From: a virus
DNA: 31,663 bases
IMG/VR virus record: IMGVR_UViG_3300037882_002606
Span: 1 to 31,663 of that record
Reading direction: 5' to 3' (one strand)
Shown: positions 136 to 31,663 of the stretch, in pieces
How positions within the stretch are numbered: the first letter of the stretch is position 1
Layout: the number at the start of each line of letters is the position of its first letter
Program-made: the position numbers and the translations under genes
Notes under the pieces: model-generated
Told to the model about the DNA's origin: nothing
The model's database searches: none
What the model saw: the letters and a program-made list of their open reading frames with translations, nothing else

Positions 136-223
136 TTTGCTGAGTAAAGTAAAAAACAACAGTGCTTAGTGACTATTCTCCCAATCTCTACATCTATGAC
201 GTGGTTTGGTGTCTCTCTTGCAT
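136..223 (-). ncRNA. Structured 5' leader L1 of the P1 early transcript
   Basis: The region between the P1 -10 box and the first early ATG is homologous to leader L2 (27312-27400). CTTAGTGACTATTC (plus strand, 165-178 versus 27342-27355) and TGGTGTCTCTCTTG (207-220 versus 27384-27397) are conserved at exactly the same 42-base spacing. The sequence between them differs but keeps pairing: CCAA/TTGG encloses a small CAT/ATG hairpin here, and CCA/TGG encloses CTCA/TGAG in L2. Conserved flanks around a variable paired core suggest a functional RNA element such as an attenuator, protein-binding site or translation control element. Its function is unknown. Confidence 0.55.
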
Positions 224-229
224 GGTGTC

Positions 230-257
230 TTTATATTGATATGCAATAGAATTGCAA
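230..257 (-). promoter_or_regulatory. Early promoter P1 (leftward)
   Basis: On the minus strand, TTGCAA (257-252) is followed by 16 bases and then TATAAA (235-230). The -35 box lies inside ATTGCAAT, an 8-base palindrome, and a second ATTGCA copy lies in the spacer. The same 23-base block occurs at P2. The palindrome over the -35 box could be an operator. It drives the small early genes and the replication operon across the circle junction. Confidence 0.75.
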
Positions 258-441
258 TAGAAAATAAAAGATTTTTTTAACAAAACATCAACAATCAAAC
301 ACAAACAAGATTAAAACATGATAGTGGTTTTGTATATAATTTGTGTCAGAATATATTGTTTTTTACCTCTATATGTGTACATATTCAATATCAAAAAAGC
401 CTAGTCGGTACAACCGACGATCGTTTATGTTTAAAACAACA
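258..441. promoter_or_regulatory. Divergent control region between early and late modules
   Basis: No gene is visible. A rightward -10-like TATAAT sits at 335-340 with a weak TTAAAA about 18 bases upstream (311-316), a candidate late promoter. A perfect hairpin, GTCGGT-ACA-ACCGAC, lies at 404-418; read leftward it is followed by a short spacer and six T's, so it may also stop leftward transcription. Assignments here are tentative. Confidence 0.35.
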
Positions 442-17285: not shown

Positions 17286-18383
17286 GTGGAAGAATTGGAA
17301 GATATAATCGATCTCATGAGATGAGAAGACGGGACATCTATCGTAGATGTTTTTGTAAATAAAAAAGAAATAAAAAAATACCAAGAACTGGTAAATGAGT
17401 TACATCTTGTAGTAGAAACAGATGATTGAGAGTTTATAGATGCGTGAAAAGTTGTATGAGAGAAAGGGGAAGACTGAAAGGATGGGAAAGACTGAAAAGA
17501 TGGCAAAGATTGAAGAGATTGAGTAGCTGGTAAAGACGGGAAAGACGGCAAAGATGGTGTTGATTGAGTAGATGGGAAAGACTGAAAAGATGGCAAAGAT
17601 GCTTCTGATGTGTCTTGAGATATAATTGTTGAAAAAATCAACAAGTGAGACAAAAGAATACACAGATCAAAACTAGACCTTCCAACTTATTGAGTGCCAA
17701 GTTTTAGCCACATTACATGAATAGACACCAATAATGAAAAAGATGGTGACTTTTTAGTGTATAAAAAAAGTCGTTGAGAGCGAGAAAATAAAGCAATTGT
17801 GTGAGTAGAATGATGATTTGCACCACTAAACTCATCACTAAAAATACCATCTACATATTTGCCATCGTATGTTGATGATATACTAGAAGTACAGTCTTTG
17901 CCATTAGCTTGAGAGACTGGTAAAATATATATAATTACATCTTGAATAAATATCAATAAGTCTTATAGATGGTCTTGATCTCAATGGGTAGATTTAAATT
18001 TTTATGGGAAATGGTGATTTATAACATGAAACGTGTTAGATCAGCCAGATATACATTGAATGTATATAAATATTGCTGAGTTAAATTGAATAACCCAATC
18101 AACACAAACAACAGTTGGTAATCACGAAAACACACTATCTTTGCAACAAAACGAAATAAATAAACTAAAGAGCGTTGTAACAAAAACAGACAGTAGTGTT
18201 ATTTACTGAACAGATTTTAGACTATCAAGAACTCCACTAAAGAGAGGTGTATATTGAGTTTTTGTTGAATGACTAAGGTATTCAGAATGATGGAAATTAA
18301 TATGAAAAAACATTGTATTTAAACAAAAATTAAAAACAAATAGTTGAACAAGTGTTTCTGTAGTATACCCTTGTGTAGTATAA
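17286..18383 (+). CDS. Collagen-like tail fibre protein
   Basis: A 365-aa protein probably starting at GTG 17286 (VEELEDIIDLMRGEDG); the frame opens at 17268 and no nearby ATG is better placed. Residues about 58-105 are 16 perfect Gly-X-Y triplets, mainly GKD/GVD/GRD. Seven of the 16 glycines are TGA, so reading TGA as tryptophan would destroy the repeat. The repeat is followed by a helical linker (IIVEKINKGDKRI) and a beta-rich C-terminal region (YIITSGINI, WSGSQWVDLNFYGKWGF) ending in TAA. Collagen-like stretches are common in phage fibres, where they form trimeric shafts. The C-terminal region may bind receptor. Confidence 0.8.
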
Positions 18384-22357: not shown

Positions 22358-22419
22358 TCTTGTATAGGGTTGTTGTCAATACCTATGATTATAAAGCCTT
22401 TTGAGTTTTTTGTTTTCAT
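22333..22419 (-). CDS. Very small early ORF, 28 aa
   Basis: MKTKNSKGFIIIGIDNNPIQ followed by a UGA-glycine and a short tail, ending with TAG. It overlaps the next gene by 25 bases in another frame. The regular pattern and placement make it plausible, but length alone cannot prove it is expressed. Confidence 0.35.
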
Positions 22420-22440
22420 GTATAATATGTAAAATAAAAA

Positions 22441-22917
22441 CTATTTTAATTGTATTGTATCTACTGGTGCATCAGTGATATATACTTTGTTGTTTTTAAC
22501 AATGATGGTTGCGTTGCCGCATGCTAATATAACACTAACAATCCAGTCTATTTGTTCTTGTGTATATCGTGATATGTCTATACCTCCACTAGGTTCTACT
22601 CATAGATCCATGCCTATAATATGCCAATGATCACGGTCTACTATAGACCTCTCTGATACTCTATGTCTGACGCAAGTGTGTCACGTATCAGACATATATT
22701 TTAATTCAATTGGAGACAGTTTGTGGCCATCTTTTATCCACAATATGTCCTGCATAGATCATCTATTAGAATGTGGATATAGGTTTTTTGATCTATATGC
22801 GTTGCCGATTTCCTCTGTAACAAGATTGTTTTCTTTCATATAATTATAAGAGGTTTTATGCATTTTTTCTTCAATGTTTATTGATTTATACGATTTGTCG
22901 GCAAGAGGATCTCTCAT
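22441..22917 (-). CDS. Hypothetical early protein, 158 aa
   Basis: Starts MRDPLADKSYKSINIEEKMH and stops with TAG. It has a His/Arg-rich centre (SDTGHTCVRHRVSERSIVDR, then DHWHIIGMDLG) and a beta-like C-terminus (NATIIVKNNKVYITDAPVDT). The clustered histidines and the DHWH motif suggest metal binding, with a faint resemblance to M15-type peptidases, but the order of ligands does not match clearly. It begins 7 bases after the nucleotidyltransferase and is probably co-transcribed with it. Function unknown. Confidence 0.6.
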
Positions 22918-22924
22918 TGTGTTT

Positions 22925-23605
22925 TTATTGATTTAAAACGTTTTTGTTGTATTTTGCGTTGTTTCTATACAGATCAAATATTTGTTTAATAGTGTTTGTT
23001 GTACTTCTATTGTATTTGCTTCTAACTTCGTCTTCTAATAGATATTTTTGTGTGTCTCAATAATTTATAACCAAACACTTACTATCTGAATTGTTTGCCT
23101 TTAATCTTCTACATATTCACAAATAATCAGTGAAGCTGTTTAAATGTTCTTGATGTCACACTAAAATACTAGGATCAAGATATTTTACTATTCACGCAGG
23201 GCGTTCTTCATTCTCCATCTCTCACATTACACCTTCAAACTCAACAAATGCATGATCTACTGCTTTTATGTTTCAAAAAGAATAAACCCTTTCGCCTTCT
23301 TTGTTTACGTTTTCTTTTTTTTTCCTTTGCATAGTACGGCTGTCTGCCTCTACTCACACAATGAGTTTAATGTTTTTGTCGTCAAGTTTCAATCTTTGTT
23401 GCAACTTTGCCCTGATAGTATTCATGTACTGGATATGTGACGAGTGCATAAGATCTCATGATAAGTGTACAAGTGCCACTGTATGACCTTCTCTTTTTCG
23501 TTTCTCTATAAGGTCTTTAGTGTCGAGCAATTGCTCTAGCAAAGCATCAGATATATCATCTCCCATAGATGGTGCAAGTATCGGGTTGTCTCTTAGTGTG
23601 TTCAT
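22925..23605 (-). CDS. Nucleotidyltransferase-like protein (cytidylyl-/adenylyltransferase fold)
   Basis: A 226-aa protein. HTVALVHLSGDLMHSSHIQY at residues 41-60 corresponds to the nucleotide-binding loop of the HxGH superfamily (G-FD-LH-GH in glycerol-phosphate cytidylyltransferases), with the conserved Gly replaced by Ser (H54-S-S-H57). LIVGVEADSRTMQRKKK at about 81-97 followed by GERVYSFGNIKAVDHAFVEF matches the family's VGV-SD...K...ER...VD pattern. Such enzymes join a nucleotide to a small phosphate compound, as in NAD, CoA or CDP-precursor synthesis. In an early module a role in NAD metabolism or surface-polymer change is possible; the substrate cannot be told from sequence. Confidence 0.7.
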
Positions 23606-23822
23606 GTATATTGTTAATATAAAACATTTCGTTATTTATATGGTTTTTGCGTGGTATATATATAAATATAAAATTATTTTGATATGGTTTACCTAAACAA
23701 ACTTTATGTTTTAGTGTTATTGTAACAGACACAGTTATATTCATAAGTAACGCACCTCTTACCTGAAGATTGTATACATGAGAAATCAGAAACATTTCAT
23801 CCAGAATATCATGCTCATTCAC
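23517..23822 (-). CDS. Uncertain early ORF, up to 101 aa
   Basis: Open from GTG 23822 (VNEHDILDEMFLISHVYNLQ) to TAA 23517, overlapping the start of the nucleotidyltransferase by 89 bases. The first 60 residues look protein-like (MNITVSVTITLKHKVCLGKP), while the part over the AT-rich stretch 23610-23690 does not. That stretch could instead hold a leftward promoter for the nucleotidyltransferase. The remaining bases to 23969 show no gene. Confidence 0.25.
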
Positions 23823-23969
23823 AATAACTATTTATTTCTCTTTCATTGATGTAGTATCTTGTATTACATCAACTCAACATAACAGTCAAACAAACTAGTC
23901 AGACAATTATTATTGTTTTCGCACAATGATAATAAATAAAGTTGTGAAACAAAACATAAATATAGTTTC

Positions 23970-24149
23970 TTATTTGTTTGGTGTGTTCAACAACTCTATC
24001 AAAAAAGAACCTGTGCCGTTGCATATATCACAATTTGGATCTTGTGGTTTCATACATTTGTAACAAAACTTCTTATATTCGTTTTGCAATGACTGAAGTG
24101 ATGATGTAATGGTGTTGTCTATTCGTAGTGTTTCTTGTAGTTTGTTCAT
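23970..24149 (-). CDS. Zinc-ribbon-type small protein, 59 aa
   Basis: Starts MNKLQETLRIDNTITSSLQS; an in-frame TTG at 24185 would add 12 residues. A helical N-terminus is followed by CYKCMKPQDPNCDICNGTGS, a four-cysteine (CxxC, CxxC) zinc-binding knuckle with the DnaJ-like C-x-x-C-x-G-x-G end. Such small zinc proteins often regulate or bind nucleic acids or chaperone partners. Co-transcribed with the lysozyme gene upstream. Confidence 0.65.
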   Translation of the reverse strand: MNKLQETLRIDNTITSSLQSLQNEYKKFCYKCMKPQDPNCDICNGTGSFLIELLNTPNK

Positions 24150-24178
24150 TATAATATTAAGAAATAAATAATGTTGCT

Positions 24179-24598
24179 TTAACAAGTGGTATATAAAAGT
24201 CGTTCTTTGTTTCTTCTTTTAACCAATCATCATTGTTTTTTTCATGATGCGTATATATACGATTTTCGTCTACTTTCAGTAATTTTGTTTCTTATATGTT
24301 CATAACAAGACGGACAATTCCAGTATAAAGAAATCAATGCTCACTGTTTGCATGTAGACAATCATGGATTTTCATAAACTATTTTGTCGTGCCTGCCTTG
24401 TAACGCCTTTTTATACCTTATAAAAACTTCTTCTTTTGTTATTGTTTCTCATTTATAACTTTTTGTACCAAACCCTATTGATCGTTGTTTGTGGTCAAAA
24501 TATGCAACTTCCCTATATCACTCTAAATTTTTTATGATATGATATGCGTACTCGTACGCAGACAGCCTAGCCTCCACTTTACTATTACCTATCTCCAT
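24179..24598 (-). CDS. GH24-type phage lysozyme (endolysin)
   Basis: A 139-aa protein. IIKNLEGYREVAYFDHKQRS followed by IGFGT at residues 21-45 matches the T4-lysozyme family pattern in which Glu (E26) is catalytic and the D and T/S residues follow (D35, S40). GETITKEEVFIRY and CKQGALISLYWNCPSC correspond to the conserved second half (Q-AL-S-x-N). The glycine after the catalytic Glu is UGA. It cleaves peptidoglycan glycan strands. It sits in the leftward early module, away from the holin, which is unusual. There is no signal peptide; the C-terminus is Lys/Arg-rich. Confidence 0.8.
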
Positions 24599-24618
24599 AG
24601 GTTTTAATACAGTTTTGG

Positions 24619-24966
24619 CTATTGAAAAACAAAATTAGATCCGCTTAGATTTTTTTCATAAAATTCTTTTGTTGCTTTTTTTATTTCGTTTCTTGATTTT
24701 TCTGCTATTTGATTTTCTAATTTTGTTTTTGATTTTAGAAACTCTCTTTCAGACTCAATTGTATTATAGTTTTTTTTTGCTTGTTTTATTATTTCTCAAC
24801 ATGCGTTTATTTTTGTTTCAAAACTATGTCATGTTCAATAACATTTTTCTTCGTATGTTTGTTCTTGGTTTTTTTGCTTATATCAAACACCAAATAAAAC
24901 AAAAACAAAGATAACAAACAAAACAAAGAGTGACGCTTTTCGTTTATATCAGATTACGTATATCAT
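24619..24966 (-). CDS. Membrane-anchored coiled-coil protein, 115 aa
   Basis: MIYVIGYKRK is followed by one strong membrane segment (ASLFVLFVIFVFVLFGVG), then a two-cysteine stretch and a long Lys/Glu coiled coil (KSKTKLENQIAEKSRNEIKK). It lies immediately upstream of the lysozyme in the same operon. This topology is that of an inner-membrane spanin (Rz-like) or a membrane-tethered regulator of lysis, which would make this gene pair a second lysis unit. Family not established. Confidence 0.6.
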
Positions 24967-24979
24967 TTTGTAAAAAAAA

Positions 24980-25312
24980 CTAAAAAATCTCATCTTCAAT
25001 AAAAATTTTGTTTTCATCTTTGTTTCATCAAGACGTTTTGTCTAACTTTCGACAATTAATTGATTGGTAGTGTTTTCATGTTTTTGAAGAAAAATTTGAT
25101 TTAAAATTTAAGTGTGCCGATACCATATCTCACAAACACAAACCATTTGCCATTTCGATCTTTTCTTTAAATAAATCAAACTGTATTGTGTTTGGGTATT
25201 GGCTTCAAGAAACCTCTTTTATAGCAATTGTTTTTTTTTCAAGTCAATTGCTGCCAATTGTTTCTGTTTGTCAAATATAAACAACCTCTCATTCAAAATC
25301 TGTACTAAACAT
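24980..25312 (-). CDS. DUF3127-like OB-fold protein (possible ssDNA-binding), copy A
   Basis: A 110-aa protein starting MFSTDFEGEVVYIGQTETIG. The pattern GEVVYIGQTETIG-x-NG-x-KK, then SQYPNTIQFDLFKEKIEMAN, then GDMVSAHLNFKSNFSSKTGK follows the DUF3127 family, small OB-fold proteins frequent near phage recombination genes and suspected to bind single-stranded DNA. The C-terminus is acidic (NKIFIEDEIF), as in SSB-type proteins. It is the first gene after promoter P3. A paralogue lies at 25680-25955. Confidence 0.7.
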
Positions 25313-25409
25313 TATTAAACAATAGTAAATAAAAAACGCTACATAGATATACTCCTGCGACCAACCTTTCGATTGAAGAATACACCTATGTAGTGTGGTG
25401 ATTGGTCGC
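25313..25409 (-). ncRNA. Structured leader L3 with an H-type pseudoknot
   Basis: Two perfect 8-base pairings interlock. Plus-strand CTACATAG (25339-25346) pairs with CTATGTAG (25386-25393), and GCGACCAA (25357-25364) pairs with TTGGTCGC (25402-25409). The order A-B-A'-B' defines an H-type pseudoknot. AGATAT/ATATCT (25345-25350 with 25419-25424) could extend it. It lies between P3 and the start of the DUF3127-like gene. Compact pseudoknots in 5' leaders often act as riboswitches, protein-binding sites or exonuclease blocks; ligand unknown. Confidence 0.65.
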
Positions 25410-25415
25410 ATTGAT

Positions 25416-25443
25416 AATATATCTATATTACAATAAATTGCAA
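25416..25443 (-). promoter_or_regulatory. Early promoter P3 (leftward)
   Basis: TTGCAA (25443-25438), 16 bases, TATATT (25421-25416). The -35 box is again within the palindrome ATTGCAAT, and an imperfect second copy (ATTGTAAT) lies in the spacer. Drives the DUF3127-like, coiled-coil, lysozyme and downstream genes. Confidence 0.75.
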
Positions 25444-25452
25444 TAGAAAATA

Positions 25453-25659
25453 CTAAATATTGTTTTTTTGTTTTTTTTTGGACACAATACTTTTTAGCCT
25501 ATTACAGTATCATCATTGTGTTGGCATAGGAAAACCCATTGCGTGTTTTAGTCAGTAATTTGATACTCTGTATACAAATGTTCTATAAGAAATTTTTCAA
25601 AAGAAGCTGTTTCTCCATACCTCAGCAAGGTTTACTAATGGTTTTTTTTTGTTTTCCAT
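25453..25659 (-). CDS. Small basic early protein, 68 aa
   Basis: MENKKKPLVNLAEVWRNSFF, ending in a Lys/Gln tail and TAG only ten bases before P3. It contains three or four UGA-glycines and a Pro/aromatic middle (HAMGFPMPTQGGYCNRLKSI). Basic composition suggests nucleic-acid contact. No family was recognised. Confidence 0.6.
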
Positions 25660-25679
25660 GTTTTAAATAAGTTAAAACT

Positions 25680-25955
25680 TTAAATGTTTTGTGGATCGAT
25701 TTTTGATGATGTTATTGTAGTATAGTATTTTTGTGTTTTAGTATAACGCATTTTTTTAAAAACAAGTTGTACAGAAACAAGGTCTCAAACTCAATGGTTA
25801 CAAATAAGTTGCATTTTGTCTTCAAACAAATCAACACATATTGATTGTTTTTTTGTTTCGTTTTCTAAGACAAAAGATATTTTTTGCAATAGGTTTTCTT
25901 TATTTTCAATGGTTTCTATTGGTCAAATATAGGTAATTTTTCAATCATAATTCAT
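25680..25955 (-). CDS. DUF3127-like OB-fold protein, copy B
   Basis: A 91-aa protein (MNYDGKITYIGPIETIENKE). It parallels copy A: ITYIGPIETI versus VVYIGQTETI, ICVDLFEDKMQLIC versus IQFDLFKEKIEMAN, GDLVSVQLVF versus GDMVSAHLNF, and KTQKYYTTI versus KTGKHYQSI. The acidic C-terminal tail of copy A is missing. Two diverged copies in separate promoter units, one with ERF and Gp157, suggest specialised ssDNA-binding roles, perhaps a heteromer. Confidence 0.6.
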
Positions 25956-25988
25956 AAATTTTGAATTGTTTTATAAACTAAAAGAAAG

Positions 25989-26465
25989 CTATTTTATTTG
26001 TAAATTTTGTTTTGTCTCAATTCTTGCTCACTCTATATACTGTCAGTTTTTTATAGCTTCTTTGATTGCCGCCTTGTCTGCCTCTTTTATTATTTTTGTT
26101 CTCATGTATTCATCTGCTATTGCAGCACTATAATCTACAACAACACTTTCTGATTTTCTGTATGATAATTTAGCAATACTTGTTTGTATTGTTGTCTGTT
26201 TTGTTGATTGCATATATCTATCTACTATCTTCTCAAGGATTTCTATGTGTTTTTCGTATTTTTTTCTTTGATCTGCAAGCCTTTTTTCTTCCAACTTGTA
26301 ACTAGAAATTGTTGCTTCGCAATTACGAATTGACTTTATAACATCTTCTAGCGAATCTTCTGCTAAAATATTGTATCATTCTAGCATTTCATTTGTTGTT
26401 TCTTCATCATAACCCATAGAAAGGATTTCTTGCATGTGATTTGATATTGTGTACAAACTTACCAT
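25989..26465 (-). CDS. Gp157-family protein (siphovirus Gp157-like)
   Basis: A 158-aa protein (MVSLYTISNHMQEILSMGYD). Layout matches the Gp157 family: an N-terminal helix, SLEDVIKSIRNCEATISSYK, RLADQRKKYEKHIEILEKIV, then QTSIAKLSYRKSESVVVDYS, and a C-terminal DKAAIKEAIKNGQYIEGARI. The UGA-glycines in KNG and EGA fall at family-conserved positions. Members accompany phage recombination genes, and Streptococcus thermophilus Gp157 has been linked to phage resistance. Its start overlaps the previous stop by one base (TAATG), indicating coupled translation. Confidence 0.85.
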
Positions 26466-26746
26466 TATAATTGTTGTGAAAAAACAAAATCAACTTTTGC
26501 CTCTGGAAGATCATAATAACTTATTTGTTCATATTTTCGCCAATCACTGTAGTATAACCTCCCCCAGTATTCTGCAATAAAATATATTACATTATTCAGA
26601 TACCCATACCGTTCATCGTGTGACATATTAGATGTTGTATTTTTTTTATATCAAACCTTGAACATTTTGTGCAATCAATCTTTGTTAAATCATAGTCGAT
26701 CAGCAGTTATAGATATTATAGCTCGATAGTATTTACGCATTTTCAT
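26465..26746 (-). CDS. NinB/recombination-associated small protein, 93 aa
   Basis: MKMRKYYRAIISITADRLGF, then KDGLHKMFKVGYKKNTTSNM and RYGYLNNVIYFIAEYWG. The layout KYY-x-I-x-I...G-x-KD-x-LH-x-x-K resembles small phage proteins found beside ERF/Erf recombinases, related to NinB-type orf proteins that help load recombinase onto SSB-coated DNA. The start overlaps the end of ERF by 14 bases. Family assignment is by pattern only. Confidence 0.5.
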
Positions 26747-27311
26747 ACAATCACTTGATTGTTTTTTTTGCTTTATCATCTATGATGTACCTAACAGATA
26801 AATAGTCCATTATGCTGTCAAATGTTGGATATGACTTTTTTGTATTAAATATGTTTAACTTGATGGTGTCTATAACGTCATTTGACATATGTTTTTTTGT
26901 TTCTTGTTTTTTTTCTGTATTTATGTCTTTACTTGCTTGTTTTCCATCATCATCTTCTACCTCAAGATCAAACAAAGCTATTAGATTATACCTTCTGTAA
27001 TATGTGATAGCCGATCCTTTGTCTTGTGCTTTGTTAGAATCTCACATAGGTATAGACGAGGATATGTAGTCGTTTTCTATATCAAGATTTACTATCTTTG
27101 TTACCAACATATTGTTTTCTATGTAGTGAGTAATTAGCACATTGTGGTATTCAAGCAATGGATTTATTTTTTCTTGTATTTGGTCAAGAGCGGCGTATTT
27201 ATAATTAAATCCCTTTGTGTCTCTTGTAAGAGTAATGCGATTTTTTTTGATTTCAAACATTTTTTTATAGATGTTTTTGTTTTTTGTTGTTTGTTGTTCG
27301 GTCAAATCCAT
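26733..27311 (-). CDS. erf: ERF-family single-strand annealing recombinase
   Basis: A 192-aa protein starting MDLTEQQTTKNKNIYKKMFE. NYKYAALDQIQEKINPLLEY, HNVLITHYIENNMLVTKIVN and GSAITYYRRYNLIALFDLEV followed by EDDDGKQ are the core conserved blocks of the ERF family: YKYA-LD, then GSA-TYARRY-L, then the acidic D/E patch. These proteins anneal complementary single strands and can circularise or repair phage DNA. First gene after P2 and leader L2. The C-terminal region, about 60 residues, is a separate helical domain. The UGA-glycines are in PMGDS and KGLYE. Confidence 0.85.
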
Positions 27312-27400
27312 ACTTATACTTTTATGATATAAAACATACAACTTAGTGACTATTCCCCATAGAGTCTCATAATGAGTTGGCTGTGGTGTCTCTCTTGTGT
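27312..27400 (-). ncRNA. Structured leader L2 of the ERF operon
   Basis: Homologous to L1 (136-223). The conserved blocks at 27342-27355 and 27384-27397 flank a variable paired core, here CCA/TGG around CTCA-TTA-TGAG. The leader precedes an ERF start, whereas L1 precedes an unrelated small gene, so the RNA rather than the protein is what is conserved. Confidence 0.55.
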
Positions 27401-27406
27401 GATGTA

Positions 27407-27434
27407 TATATATGAATATGCAATAGAATTGCAA
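27407..27434 (-). promoter_or_regulatory. Early promoter P2 (leftward)
   Basis: TTGCAA (27434-27429), 16 bases, TATATA (27412-27407). A 23-base block around the -35 region is identical to P1. It starts 10 bases after the stop of the 118-aa gene and drives erf and the genes following it. Confidence 0.75.
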
Positions 27435-27443
27435 TAGATTTTT

Positions 27444-27800
27444 TTATAATTTGGCTGCATTTTCTGGTAACTTAGCGTTATCGATAAAGTATTTTATTTT
27501 CCCTTCGTCTGTCATAGTAGACATAGCAATATAGTGTCGGTTTGGTAACGCTAATACATGATCTTCCCGTCCCACAAATTCCATAATTCAACTATCTATG
27601 CTGAACAAATCATGATAAGAGAAATACTTATCGTAAAACTGTTCTTTTTGTGTGTTTTTCTGTGATGGGATAAACACAATATCGTATTGCGAGCATACAC
27701 ACCTGTCAAAAACAATAACAACGTTGCTATTCCGTCACAGAAAAGGTTTTCGTCACATCTTTAGACATTCATTTAGAATGTCTTGTAGTTTTTCGTTCAT
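27444..27800 (-). CDS. Hypothetical early protein, 118 aa
   Basis: MNEKLQDILNECLKMGRKPF and ends with TAA. It is an alpha/beta protein with a hydrophobic strand (NVVIVFDRCVCSQYDIVFIP), a Gln/Lys linker and a C-terminal DEGKIKYFIDNAKLPENAAK. Three UGA-glycines are in sensible positions. It closes the transcription unit that ends at P2. No family was recognised. Confidence 0.65.
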
Positions 27801-28047
27801 TATTTTTTAACAAAATAAAAGTATGTATATAGCTATGTAATATGAGTCATAATGTTCCTGTAGCTGCACATTTATAAACATTATCTATCGGTGTTATCTA
27901 CTCATAGGCGAATCGATTGTAGCGGTTGCAACCTGTCACTTCTCTATCTTTATTTTTCTCTAGTACGATACAGCTTTCACGGCTCCTAGATACGTTCCTA
28001 TTATATTACACGGCTATGTATACACCAAACCTATAACAGCTTGTGAG
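27801..28047 (-). other. Non-coding stretch with several palindromes
   Basis: No open frame of useful length exists on either strand with TGA as sense. It has local symmetry: GGTTGCAACC (10-base palindrome, near 27929), and GTGAGTTACTCAC near 28043. Tetra- to hexamer pairings are scattered. Possibilities are a structured RNA or the 3' region of a decaying gene. No tRNA fold was found. Confidence 0.35.
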
Positions 28048-28386
28048 TTACTCACGGTAGTATGATTTTATAGACTCAAAGTAATTTTTGTCAAATTCCC
28101 TTTATTTGTCATCTAATCTTTTTAGTTTTGTTATGATATTCTTATTTTAGTAGTCTCATTGTTTGTATCAAAATTTTACAAAGAATTGTTTTGCTGGCAA
28201 CCATACATGCCCGTAATTCGCTTTGTGGAAAGCAATTCTATTTCAGCAATATTTAAATTCTTTTTTACCATAATCTGCTAATATCCAAATTCTCTTTCAT
28301 TGGTTCATATTTCATGTGTTCCACCAAGCTATATCTCTGTCGAACTCCATTCGTTTTTCTTTAGTTCGTTTGTAATATAATTTCAT
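28048..28386 (-). pseudogene. Early gene interrupted by two in-frame TAA codons
   Basis: The intact N-terminal ORF, 28386-28147 (79 aa), starts MKLYYKRTKEKRMEFDRDIA and has five UGA-glycines, a Trp/Tyr-rich middle (HKANYGHVWLPAKQFFVKFG) and stops at TAA. The same frame continues as NKNIITKLKRLDDK, a second TAA (28104-28102), then REFDKNYFESIKSYYRE and a final TAA at 28050-28048. Protein-like continuation beyond two stops suggests an ancestral 112-aa gene. The 79-aa part may still be expressed. Readthrough is less likely because TAA ends most other genes here. No family was recognised. Confidence 0.45.
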
Positions 28387-28520
28387 ATTTTTTTATAAGA
28401 TAAGTATAATGCTCCAATAGATCTCCTATAGAGTTTGTTGTACTCCTAATTATAGTAGAGTAAGATTTTGTTATTATCAAAAAGACAATAAGAAAAACAC
28501 AAATCGCTACAAAGCAATTA

Positions 28521-28583
28521 CTATACTACAATAGGAATACAACGAACAACTAGATCTTTGGTTGTTTTTTCGATAAGTTTCAT
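28521..28583 (-). pseudogene. Short ORF/relic after leader L4
   Basis: MKLIEKTTKDLVVRCIPIVV, then TAG. A hydrophobic stretch continues in a neighbouring frame (SIVIAL, stop, RFVFFLLSFG), as if a small membrane protein had been disrupted. It is the first ATG after P4. The bases 28387-28520 hold no other clear gene. Confidence 0.3.
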
Positions 28584-28796
28584 GCTCATAATGAGTCTCC
28601 TACTTTCGTCCGTCCATAGCGTATCTACCAGCTAGCTATGAGTGCTTAACCTACACCGCTTTGGATCACCAATTTTTCTGTAAACAGAAAGCTCTATTAG
28701 TGTTATCAGGCGTTCAAATACATCAGAACCAGCAAAACTAGTAATGAAATATAACTGATAACACTAATAGAGCTATTGGTTATGATGTACTTGAAC
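28584..28796 (-). ncRNA. Long structured leader / candidate small RNA L4
   Basis: About 210 bases lie between P4 and the first ATG, with almost no coding content. From 5' to 3' it holds the perfect 20-base inverted repeat (28774-28690), a TTTCTG/CAGAAA hairpin (28690-28675), a CATAGC/GCTATG hairpin and a CTCATTATGAG dyad. The density of stems suggests a structured RNA that may act on its own. No known RNA family was recognised. Confidence 0.5.
28690..28774. repeat. Perfect 20-base inverted repeat with 45-base loop
   Basis: Bases 28690-28709 (AGCTCTATTAGTGTTATCAG) are the exact reverse complement of 28755-28774. A perfect 20-base stem is very unlikely by chance. It starts about 20 bases after the predicted P4 start site, so it would form at the 5' end of the transcript. 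Confidence 0.9.
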
Positions 28797-28802
28797 CTAA
28801 TC

Positions 28803-28831
28803 AATATACACAAAACAACAACCTATTGCAA
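28803..28831 (-). promoter_or_regulatory. Early promoter P4 (leftward)
   Basis: TTGCAA (28831-28826), 17 bases, TATATT (28808-28803). It shares the TTGCAATA context of the other three promoters but lacks the second palindrome. Just upstream is a run of eight C's (28844-28851). Confidence 0.65.
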
Positions 28832-28857
28832 GAGATTTTTAGACCCCCCCCAAATTA

Positions 28858-29256
28858 TTATGATTTCTTTTTTTTATTATCTCTTTTTCTCTTCTCGTTT
28901 TCAAAATAATCTATCCGCTCTCATTTGTACTTTACAAGTCGCAATAATGTATAATAAGACTTTACATATAAAAGCATTTTTCTTTTTAACTTTGCTTCAG
29001 GGGTCGCCATCCCCTTTATGTCTACAACATGTATTGTACCATCTGTATATATGACTTCAAAGTCTGCAACATACTCTATAGCTCTTATGTTTTTACCATC
29101 TTTGGTGGTAAATTTTGGCTGTAATATATAGGATGGTTGTATGTTGATATACATTATATCATTTCTTGACTTTAGGTAAGTATAGTATTCGGCTTCTGCC
29201 TTGCTGTCAAATACATGTCAGTCGACTGTTACTTTTTTATTTCTGTATTTGTTCAT
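28858..29256 (-). CDS. DUF1064-family nuclease-like protein
   Basis: A 132-aa protein: MNKYRNKKVTVDGHVFDSKA, EAEYYTYLK, then LQPKFTTKDGKNIRAIEYVA, DFEVIYTDGTIHVVDIKGM and a C-terminal KRKMLLYVKSYYTLLRLVKY. These are the ordered blocks of DUF1064, a PD-(D/E)xK-type fold: the E of SKAEAEYY, the D of ADFEV, and VDIKG holding D-x-K. Members are common in phage replication modules and may process branched DNA. The start overlaps the NinG-like gene by 28 bases. Confidence 0.8.
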
Positions 29257-29702
29257 ATTATACTAAATATATAACTAAAATCTTTCCCCTCATCGAGCAA
29301 TTGTTGTATAACTCTTTTGTTTCATATACATATGCTATCTATAGCTTTGTGACATATAGGGCCGCACACAATTGCTATGTTCTCTGTATGTAGTCTATAA
29401 GTAGGATACAGGCCTTTAGCAAGTAGATGAGCAAAGCATCGTGCCTGCGGTTCATATATGTATTTTCTACATATACAACAAATCGGCTTGCTGGTGTTCC
29501 GTATTTGCTCAAAAACATCTTTTTCTCATGTATGACTATGCTTTTTACGTATTGTTGTGTGTTTTTTGCGTTTTGGTGGTTTTGTGTTCGATGTAATGCG
29601 GCGTTTCTCTTTGTTTTTTAAAATATATTTTTCTTTTTTTTCGATTTCTTTTTGTTTATTTTTTTCTTCTTTGTGTTTTTTATTTGTTTCTAGTGATTCC
29701 AT
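29229..29702 (-). CDS. NinG/HNH-like zinc protein, 157 aa
   Basis: MESLETNKKHKEEKNKQKEI opens a Lys-rich helix of about 60 residues, followed by KPICCICRKYIYEPQARCFA, HLLAKGLYPTYRLHTENIAI and VCGPICHKAID. The C-x2-C...AH...R...EN...C-x3-CH pattern is that of NinG-like and HNH-type phage proteins. NinG in lambda acts in recombination. The basic N-terminus suggests DNA binding. Overlap with DUF1064 indicates coupled expression. Confidence 0.65.
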
Positions 29703-29725
29703 TGTTCTAACTATATAAAATTTAT

Positions 29726-29968
29726 CTAAAAAATACGGAAAAAAAATCTTCACGGCATATAGTGTGCTTCTGGTTCTATTAAAATGCTTTTGCCTTCCAA
29801 ACAACAGTCTTTTGATATTTCTGCAAGCTCGCCCCAACAAAAAGAACTTGGCAATCTGTTTTTAAATCTAAAATATCCAACAAGATCGTGTCAATTGTCT
29901 AATACTATCCAGCTTCTGTATTCTTTTACTTTTTTACATCAGTTTTCAATCATTTCTTTTACAGTCAT
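29726..29968 (-). CDS. Small early protein, 80 aa
   Basis: MTVKEMIENGCKKVKEYRSW, then a strand pattern (WIVLDNGHDLVGYFRFKNRL) and CWGELAEISKDCCLEGKSIL; ends with TAG. Three cysteines near the C-terminal half and three UGA-glycines. Lies between the helicase loader and the NinG-like gene. No family was recognised. Confidence 0.6.
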
Positions 29969-30017
29969 GTTTTACAATCAAATAAATAAAACAATACGGT
30001 TGTTTGAGTTTGTGGTT

Positions 30018-30050
30018 TAGTGTTTATGTGTTATGTTCTATATAAACACT
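30018..30050. repeat. Inverted repeat after the helicase-loader gene
   Basis: AGTGTTTAT and ATAAACACT form a 9-bp stem with a loop of about 14 bases, downstream of the dnaC-like gene on the leftward transcript. T-rich sequence follows some 30 bases later, so it may attenuate transcription between replication and recombination genes. Confidence 0.5.
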
Positions 30051-30059
30051 GGTCTGTTG

Positions 30060-30581
30060 TTATATGCTGTAAATTTTTGTATTTTTTAGCCTCATATCTT
30101 CTCAAGAAAAGATTATTATGTCAGAGTTTAATAACATTCTACTAACAATTCTGTCGTTTAGTTTTTCTGATAGTTCGTTTTTAGATAAATTTGTTGTAAA
30201 AATTGTTATTAGTTTTTTGTTAATTCTTTCGTCCAAAATAAACGTCAAATCCCTTATATAAGCATCACTAGCATCGCTTACTCATATATCGTCGTATAAA
30301 AACATTTTGTATCTCACCATCATTTCAAGGGGATAGTACGCAATATCTGTTTGGTATTCATCTGGTTTTCTTAAAACAAGTTGGTTTGACTTCACCAGTT
30401 GTTTAAACCTTCAGTCGGTTATAGATCAAAAATCAAACTTTGTAGAGTTTCACTCTTTTTTTTGTTTTTCAGAAAATTTTTCAAGTATTTTGTTTGCTGT
30501 GTGTGTTTTTCATGTTCCAGTAGGTCAACAAAAAACAAGTCACTTTGTGTAGTCATACAAACTAAAGTCAAATTTTTCCAT
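30060..30581 (-). CDS. DnaC/IstB-type helicase loader ATPase
   Basis: A 173-aa AAA+ protein. Walker A is FCGPTGTGKTHTA at residues 18-30, in which G19 and G24 are UGA and only G22 is GGA. Walker B is MFLYDDIG, sensor 1 is LITIFTTNLS, and the Arg-finger region is LNDRIVSRML. Order and size match phage DnaC-like loaders, which place the host replicative helicase at the origin. It lies seven bases after the initiator gene, the usual pairing. A standard-code host would stop after 13 residues. Confidence 0.85.
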
Positions 30582-30588
30582 GTCAAAA

Positions 30589-31224
30589 TTACATAAAAGT
30601 AAAATTTTGTCTTGACTCGCTTTTTTCATATTGCATTTTTTCTTTTCAATTGCGAAAATTTTTATTGTTCGATGTTTCTCTGTTTTCTCGTGTTCTAACG
30701 CAAGCTTTCCAGTCCTTCATTTTGTTTTTTCAAACCATCCGTCCATTGCTTTCATAAAAATCAAGAAATTTTTCTGGCAAAACATTGTTTTTTCTTTCTA
30801 AACAGTAATTTTTTAATTCTTCTAATTTTGGTTTTATAAATTTTTTAGAGAGCCCCCTATCTATATTATTTGTATTATTATTTATATATGTATTATTATG
30901 TACACCTTTTGGTGGGTAGCCCTCCACACCTTTTGGTGGGTAGGTATCCACCTTTTGGTGTATAGCTATAAACCTTTTGTTTCAATTTTCTTTTTCTATT
31001 CTCGATGTCACAAATCAATTAGCTACAAGCTCACTAATCCATATTGTTACTTGTTTTTCTGAAACAGAGTATAGTTGGGCAAAATAATTATTACTTGCGT
31101 AGCACTCTCATGTTCTATTGGCGAGTGCTGTTATTTCTCAATACAATAATTTTGAATTTGCTTTTATTTTCGAATATCTAACGTCTGCAGGTATAATGGC
31201 ATAGTAGTTTGGCTGATCTTTCAT
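30589..31224 (-). CDS. Replication initiator (winged-helix, lambda O/DnaD-like)
   Basis: A 211-aa protein. MKDQPNYYAIIPADVRYSKI, LLYGEITALANRTGECYASN, NYFAQLYSVSEKQVTIWISE and LVANGFVTSRI form the common N-terminal HTH_36-like domain of phage initiators. A linker with duplicated YPPKGV follows, encoded by repeats that look like iterons. The C-terminal domain (KPKLEELKNYCLERKNNVLP, FLDFYESNGRMVGKNKMKDW) resembles the loader-interacting region. It would bind the origin inside its own gene and recruit the DnaC-like protein. Confidence 0.8.
30850..30965. repeat. Candidate replication origin: three iterons beside an AT-rich tract
   Basis: ACACCTTTTGGTGGGTAG occurs at 30902-30919 and 30926-30943, and a variant (CCACCTTTTGGTGTATAG) at 30948-30965. 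Each contains the dyad CACC-TTTT-GGTG. The starts are 24 and 22 bases apart, about two helical turns. The adjoining 30850-30899 is almost pure A/T, suitable for unwinding. Iterons within the initiator gene next to an AT-rich element are the lambda-type origin plan. Confidence 0.6.
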
Positions 31225-31239
31225 GTACGTATTTTGAGA

Positions 31240-31284
31240 AAATAAAAAGCCCTAGACAATCCGACCAAGGAAACTAGAGCTTTT
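31240..31284 (-). terminator. Terminator between small early genes and the initiator gene
   Basis: On the minus strand AGCTCTAG pairs with CTAGGGCT (8 bp, one G-T) around an 18-base loop, followed by TTTTTATTTT. The stem overlaps the stop of the 39-aa gene. It probably reduces read-through from P1 into the replication genes, or acts as a site of antitermination. Confidence 0.65.
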
Positions 31285-31393
31285 GTGTTTTGTCTTTATG
31301 CCTTAACACAAAGATTTCATCAGGACTTCCCCAATTTTCAAACTCAAAACATTTGGTCGAATTGTTTTTGATTGCTACTAAATATATACGCAA
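31274..31393 (-). CDS. Small early protein, 39 aa
   Basis: Probable TTG start at 31393 (MRIYLVAIKNNSTKCFEFEN), ending with HKDKTQKL and TAG in the terminator stem. The strand-like start followed by FENWGSPDEIFVLRHKD looks like a compact fold. The frame is open upstream, so the true start could be further back. No family was recognised. Confidence 0.4.
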   Translation of the reverse strand: MRIYLVAIKNNSTKCFEFENWGSPDEIFVLRHKDKTQKL

Positions 31394-31458
31394 ATTACAT
31401 ACCAAAATCAACAGATTATTCACAACATCAACAACAATCACAATATTTGTTTTCTCAA
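31378..31458 (-). CDS. Small membrane protein, 26 aa
   Basis: TTG start at 31458, preceded by a good ribosome-binding site (AGAGGAG, 6 bases spacing). The product, MRKQILGLLLMLGIICGFWY plus VICVYI, is a basic start and a single membrane helix, with three UGA-glycines. It overlaps both neighbours in other frames. The strong RBS favours expression; the small size leaves doubt. Confidence 0.45.
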
Positions 31459-31547
31459 TTTTTCTCCTCTATTTCTTTAAATCTCTTTTCTATAATCTTT
31501 GTCCGTTCCTTTTTTTCTTCATCTGTCATATCAACAAATTGTTTCAT
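31416..31547 (-). CDS. Small early protein with a cysteine cluster, 43 aa
   Basis: MKQFVDMTDEEKKERTKIIE, then a charged helix and, after a UGA-glycine, the tail GENKYCDCCGCCE. If UGA is read through, the five cysteines could bind metal. The tail overlaps the start of the 26-aa membrane ORF, and its base composition may reflect that gene instead. The N-terminal helix is credible; the Cys tail is less certain. Confidence 0.45.
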
Positions 31548-31555
31548 TATAAAAG

Positions 31556-31663
31556 TTAGCAAATAAAAATATAAACATTGTCCGCAACAGGTCTTGCTAA
31601 TGGATATGTTTTTAGCAATTCAAGATGTTGAACGCTATCTCAAACACGAATATGCACAATTAC
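31556..31663 (-). CDS. Hypothetical 47-aa early protein, C-terminal part (same gene as 1-135)
   Basis: This is the end of the gene that starts at 135; bases 31565-31663 duplicate 1-99. It stops with TAA at 31558-31556, nine bases before the ATG of the next small gene (31547). Only bases 31556-31564 are additional to the copy at the left edge. Confidence 0.6.
31565..31663. repeat. Terminal direct repeat, right copy
   Basis: Exact duplicate of bases 1-99. It should be removed once when the genome is circularised. The minus-strand 47-aa gene that begins at 135 runs through this repeat and ends at 31556. Confidence 0.95.

Follow-up and report, generated by a model that had tools for sequence, protein, structure and literature searches.

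Predicted leftward promoters with a shared operator motif and two kinds of leader in a phage genome using genetic code 25

The window analyzed here is the whole 31,663-nt stretch of the viral record IMGVR_UViG_3300037882_002606. An exact 99-nt repeat at its two ends (1-99 and 31565-31663) leaves a unit of 31,564 bp and indicates that the genome is circular or terminally redundant; it looks complete. Read with the standard code it contains few long ORFs, whereas with table 25 (TGA = Gly) genes fill the genome, and most large genes contain 15–48 in-frame TGA codons; the phage thus uses genetic code 25, with TGA as glycine throughout. Absconditabacteria and Gracilibacteria use this code, as do the majority of phages predicted for Absconditabacteria hosts (PMC10746230). 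A phage collection searched with the genome at the DNA level gave no match. The rightward half carries terminase and virion genes. The leftward half (∼22,400 to 31,560, continuing to 135) encodes a replication initiator, a DnaC-like loader, a DUF1064 resolvase, an ERF annealing protein, a Gp157/Gam-like protein, two SSB-like proteins and an endolysin. Sequence between genes accounts for 12% of the genome length, and for 22% in the leftward half. Gene starts (n = 25) are without Shine-Dalgarno (SD) sequences; they are T-rich from −23 to −16 and A-rich from −8 to −2, with G nearly absent. Four predicted leftward promoters (P1–P4), the leaders that follow them (L1–L4) and the associated features are listed in Table 1. 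The first gene past L1 crosses the end-repeat junction.

Table 1. Coordinates of the promoters, operators, leader elements and adjacent genes in the window.
Feature	Position	Strand	Description
Promoter P1	230..257	-	TTGCAA (−35) N16 TATAAA (−10)
Promoter P2	27407..27434	-	TTGCAA N16 TATATA; 5' of ERF annealing-protein gene
Promoter P3	25416..25443	-	TTGCAA N16 TATATT; 5' of SSB-like gene
Promoter P4	28803..28831	-	TTGCAA N17 TATATT; one TTGCAAT operator, no tandem copy
P1 operator	239..261	-	Tandem TCTATTGCAAT / TCTATTGCATA, 11 bp apart; covers −35 and spacer
P2 operator	27416..27438	-	Tandem repeat identical to that of P1
P3 operator	25425..25447	-	TCTATTGCAAT / TTATTGTAAT, 10 bp apart
Predicted transcript starts	L1 223; L2 27400; L3 25409-25411; L4 28796-28798	-	
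L1 block A	207..220	-	CAAGAGAGACACCA; about +4 to +17 of predicted transcript
L1 core	179..206	-	28 nt; not conserved; no pairing in register with L2
L1 block B	165..178	-	GAATAGTCACTAAG; includes 9-nt dyad TAGTCACTA; 29 nt 5' of ATG at 135
L2 block A	27384..27397	-	Identical to L1 block A
L2 core	27356..27383	-	28 nt; holds CTCATTATGAG at 27366-27376
L2 block B	27342..27355	-	30 nt 5' of ERF ATG at 27311
L3 strand A	25400..25409	-	GCGACCAATC; begins at predicted +1
L3 strand B	25376..25393	-	8 Watson-Crick pairs, 18 including G-U
L3 strand A'	25357..25366	-	GGTTGGTCGC; partner of A
L3 strand B'	25339..25356	-	Partner of B; then U6 at 25331-25336, AU-rich to ATG
L4 strand A	28783..28796	-	GTTCAAGTACATCA; about +2 of predicted transcript
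L4 strand B	28755..28774	-	20 nt
L4 strand A'	28712..28725	-	14 bp with A, one G-U
L4 strand B'	28690..28709	-	Perfect 20-bp complement of B
Palindrome in L4	28585..28595	-	CTCATTATGAG, also in L2 core; 12 nt common = ACTCATTATGAG
SSB-like gene	24980..25312	-	phrog_4932 (E 1e-12), Pfam DUF3127 (E 1e-7)
ERF ssDNA-annealing protein gene	26733..27311	-	Code 25

Several other features of the genome were recorded. Among the HTH proteins of the phage is the one encoded at 30589-31224. The SSB-like gene behind P3 has a DUF3127 paralogue in the adjacent operon (25680-25955, minus strand; 35% identical), and only the former has its own TTGCAA promoter. A gene at 22925-23605 (-) encodes a nucleotidyltransferase-like protein with an HSSHIQY motif and a weak match to the heptose adenylyltransferase family, and one at 17286-18383 (+) a probable tail protein with collagen-like GKDGKDG repeats. 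Between two small genes, ∼340 nt (27801-28140, -) are devoid of a long ORF in every frame; this stretch has no Rfam match and its folding energy is not unusual. Inside the replication-initiator gene, a 22–24-nt repeat (ACACCTTTTGGTGGGTAG) occurs three times in tandem (30902-30971), with a strong folding z on both strands, and is possibly an iteron-like origin. A 22-codon ORF (MSMKLIEKTTKDLVVRCIPIVV) lies within L4 at 28521-28589 (-) with a textbook AGGAG 7 nt 5' of its ATG, the sole such site seen in a phage otherwise without SD sequences.

The original prediction of four leftward promoters of the form TTGCAA-N16/17-TATAWW was confirmed on the minus strand. The genome contains the pattern five times, whereas dinucleotide shuffles give an expectation of 0.36 (maximum 2; none of 100 shuffles reached five); the fifth site is on the plus strand inside a gene. 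P1–P4 are all intergenic, and the genes downstream are unrelated, serving leftward replication, recombination and single-strand binding. Sigma-70-like matches in general are no commoner in this region than chance predicts (46 vs. 52), so it is the recurrence of the motif, together with its position, that carries the case for promoter activity; the hexamers and spacing of P1–P4 (16–18 nt range) fit the sigma-70 type. A palindrome, ATTGCAAT, had been placed over the −35 box of each promoter, and is found at three of the four, with P4 reading CTTGCAAT instead. As an 8-mer ATTGCAAT is not in excess, and its three exact genome copies are all at these promoters. Alignment revealed a fuller operator, a TCTATTGCAAT-TCTATTGCAT tandem repeat in P1 and P2, of which P3 is a 10-bp version. 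P1 and P2 carry TCTATTGCAATTCTATTGCATAT, i.e., TCTATTGCA(A)T twice, 11 bp apart; in P3 the second C is also replaced by T, and P4 has the first copy only, with one change. The consensus of the tandem operator is TATTGCA(A)T, spaced 11, 11, and 10 bp in P1–P3. Because at three promoters this tandem operator spans the −35 box and spacer, one common regulator is probable for them.

Aligned from their predicted starts, L1 and L2 are gap-free over 59 nt and contain two identical 14-mers, CAAGAGAGACACCA and GAATAGTCACTAAG, with 28 nt between them, so that the two conserved blocks at fixed spacing described earlier are real. The core between the blocks had been called variable but paired. It is variable, with 8 of 28 positions identical, like unrelated sequence, and every test of pairing that was run came out negative: the two leaders fold no better than their shuffles (MFE z 0.02 for L1 and 1.10 for L2), RNAalifold on the pair returns zero pairs, there is no in-register common stem of at least 4 pairs (shuffled cores reach this in ∼10% of trials), and no compensatory pair occurs between L1 and L2. 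Local hairpins exist in each (CTCAT-T-ATGAG in L2, ACGTC-ATA-GATGT in L1), not in register with each other, and evidently gave rise to the pairing claim. Since there is no consensus fold, the covariance model proposed as a check was built as sequence only, and it finds L1 and L2 and nothing more; the blocks have no further copies in the window or in six related loci. A leaderless peptide in L1 was dropped as a candidate because it is absent from L2.

The claim that each promoter is followed by a structured leader holds for L3 (z −3.4) and L4 (z −7.0), and fails for L1 and L2. Among 632 windows of 100 nt on the minus strand, L4 ranks first (z −5.2) and L3 third (z −4.6), against a genome background with mean −0.3 and sd 1.2. 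L3 and L4 each contain two long interleaved helices in the order A-B-A'-B', which in L3 are GCGACCAATC/GGTTGGTCGC (10 bp) and CTACATAG/CTATGTAG (8 bp, 18 with G-U pairs); the G-U pairs of the long stem are possible in the leftward transcript only. In a scan for interleaved helices at the 5' end of 10,522 windows from both strands, L4 scored best and L3 was in the top dozen. The L3 match is that of the window starting at 25408; a start three bases earlier scores zero, one B' base being then drawn into the A stem. The −10 box predicts a +1 that is no more than 2–3 nt from the first base of strand A in both leaders, and this links the fold to the promoter. Stepwise folding forms A/A' first (−20.3 kcal/mol in L3, −30.6 in L4) and B/B' later (−27.1 and −43.3 kcal/mol, respectively). 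An H-type pseudoknot of L3 with the 8-bp B stem would have linkers of 6, 19, and 10 nt and appears sterically reasonable in this model; the MFE structure is B/B' alone. In L4 the full stems of 14 and 20 bp, with linkers of 8 and 2 nt, cannot coexist as a pseudoknot, so L4 would be a refolding switch. On sequence inspection, an HDV-like ribozyme was rejected (no P4, no catalytic C position), and a group I/II intron was likewise dropped.

That two of the four leaders are structured could reflect chance together with a single terminator-like hairpin; from the folding models, RNA control at L3 and L4 is plausible. Apart from a palindrome common to the L2 core and L4, L3 and L4 have no sequence in common with L1 and L2, and one common signal for all four leaders is not supported. 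The regulon that had been proposed is supported at the promoter and operator level (four promoters, three sharing the tandem operator), where its sequences make a shared-promoter regulon likely, and finds no support at the leader level, where L1 and L2 share sequence but no structure, and L3 and L4 topology only. In short, the original prediction holds for the promoters and operators; for the leaders it holds in L3 and L4 only, and these do not make one family with L1/L2.

Viral scans revealed no relative carrying the operator, blocks or leaders. The exact 14-mer of block B has 75 chance matches in viral_contigs, in no case with a block A correctly spaced from it, and the combination of block A, gap and block B was not found in the viral scan. 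The operator matched three copies of one coding sequence in viral_contigs, dissimilar to the window, and a single site in genome_contigs, in a Chitinophaga MAG, which was judged a chance match. The nearest protein relatives (TerL 37%, ERF 58–62%, SSB 34%, DUF1064 up to 49%) are remote, and the relatives retrieved by TerL, ERF, portal, SSB and DUF1064 are distant phages only, without operator or blocks; near-operator and 1-mismatch matches are chance ones. In the ERF relatives L082 and L083, the sequence upstream of ERF is a coding gene rather than a leader. No Rfam family matched at or above the gathering threshold.

The best explanation as a whole, to which we would give about an even chance, is a leftward half with four promoters, timed through operators and equipped with two leader devices. 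The replication and recombination genes would be transcribed from four sigma-70-type promoters, of which P1–P3 are probably timed together by one DNA-binding regulator of phage or host origin; P4 has the −35 variant and lacks the tandem operator. Past the shared promoter, the leaders would be two different devices. In L1 (replication genes) and L2 (ERF), the two blocks, both within the first 60 bases transcribed, may form an element recognized by its sequence, a site on DNA or RNA to which a protein binds, rather than by a conserved fold. In L3 (SSB) and L4 (a small gene), the two long interleaved helices from +1 may allow the 5' hairpin A/A' to form first and B/B' to compete later in transcription, yielding a pseudoknot or a refolding switch. 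The likeliest use of L3 would be feedback on SSB translation, with SSB binding the folded 5' end and spreading over the AU-rich start as T4 gp32 does.

The palindrome CTCATTATGAG bears on a different account, in which it and block B, with its dyad TAGTCACTA, are downstream DNA sites for a repressor that also binds the −35 repeats, the RNA folds being incidental. The genome has two copies of CTCATTATGAG, one in the L2 core and one in L4; in L2 it is the exact hairpin CTCAT-T-ATGAG. The longer match ACTCATTATGAG is exact and likewise confined to these two places, and only 4 of 5000 shuffled cores had 12 nt in common with a leader. This sharing is explained by a DNA operator no less well than by an RNA hairpin, and the account also suits the 42-bp distance between the centers of blocks A and B (four helical turns) and the lack of RNA structure in L1 and L2. 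It leaves unexplained the L3 and L4 helices that begin at +1 and their G-U pairs, and L1 and L3 are without the palindrome. We consider it a real possibility, though less likely than not.

Rather less can be said for a plain promoter family, in which TTGCAA/TATAWW is simply the strong early promoter of the phage, ATTGCAAT is −35 context for the host sigma factor, and the L1/L2 blocks are remains of a duplication, with no dedicated regulator involved. The sigma-70-like hexamers and spacing are as this account would have them, and L1 and L2 align ungapped over ∼95 bp in all, as after duplication. However, P1 and P2 are identical at 23 of 23 operator positions, beyond what a promoter needs, and a remnant of duplication would not combine a random 28-nt core with two perfect flanking 14-mers. 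We regard this account as somewhat unlikely.

Attenuation at L3, in which the B/B' hairpin and U6 form a terminator that A/A' pairing prevents, seems distinctly improbable. The 18-pair B/B' stem does end 2 nt 5' of UUUUUU, and A/A' does form first in the stepwise folds, but the terminator scan did not call the site, its loop being too long; all genes of this phage carry a T-rich element at the position of the U tract (−25 to −19), and the A and B sequences do not overlap.

The literature found on code-25 phages concerns coding, and the text of PMC10746230 makes no mention of promoters. Gene control in code-25 phages gains a first handle from this predicted promoter class, whose operator is defined and whose phage is without SD sequences.

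Three known systems invite comparison. The put sites of HK022 are ∼70-nt conserved RNAs with a common sequence and two stem-loops (PMC9378689). Like them, the leaders open early phage transcripts, directly after the promoter, and recur before unrelated genes, as at putL (PMC9378689), but put-like antitermination, by which the leaders would make RNA polymerase pass terminators in the long leftward operons, is very improbable here, as L1 and L2 have no stems and thus no two-stem fold, L3 and L4 share no sequence, and Rfam gave no match. The operators resemble the direct repeats of lambda CII sites (TTGC-N6-TTGC), P3 reading TTGC-N6-TTGT and P1/P2 TTGC-N7-TTGC. In CII sites the repeats lie on both sides of the −35 box, whereas here the first repeat includes the −35 box and the second sits in the spacer.

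The closest parallel for L3 is the gene 32 operator of T4 and RB69. T4 gp32 nucleates on a 5' pseudoknot, spreads over the unstructured AU-rich start and represses its own mRNA (PMC3014915, PMC535899). In L3 the parts come in a similar order: a predicted fold at the start of an SSB leader (+1 to about +73) that may form a pseudoknot, then a stretch of 26 nt, nearly all A/U and apparently unstructured, up to the ATG. This AU stretch is not special to L3, since AU-rich, SD-less starts are found at all genes of the phage, and it contains a single UUAA, in GUUUAAUAAUG, with no UUAAA/UAAA repeats after the fold. The L3 SSB belongs to DUF3127, a family other than that of gp32, and L3 differs further in its longer stems (10 and 8–18 bp), in a fold that starts at +1, and in having no SD. 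The DUF3127 SSB genes of the other phages lack a leader altogether, and a literature search for autoregulation by a DUF3127 SSB found nothing. At best, then, L3 would work like gene 32, and we do not class it as a member. It is conceivable, if unlikely, that L3 is an independently evolved autoregulatory pseudoknot of a DUF3127 SSB, in a phage whose hosts use code 25, with L4 of the same design and both under the operator-controlled promoter class of the ERF and replication operons. The SSB leader L3 is the most useful lead of this analysis.
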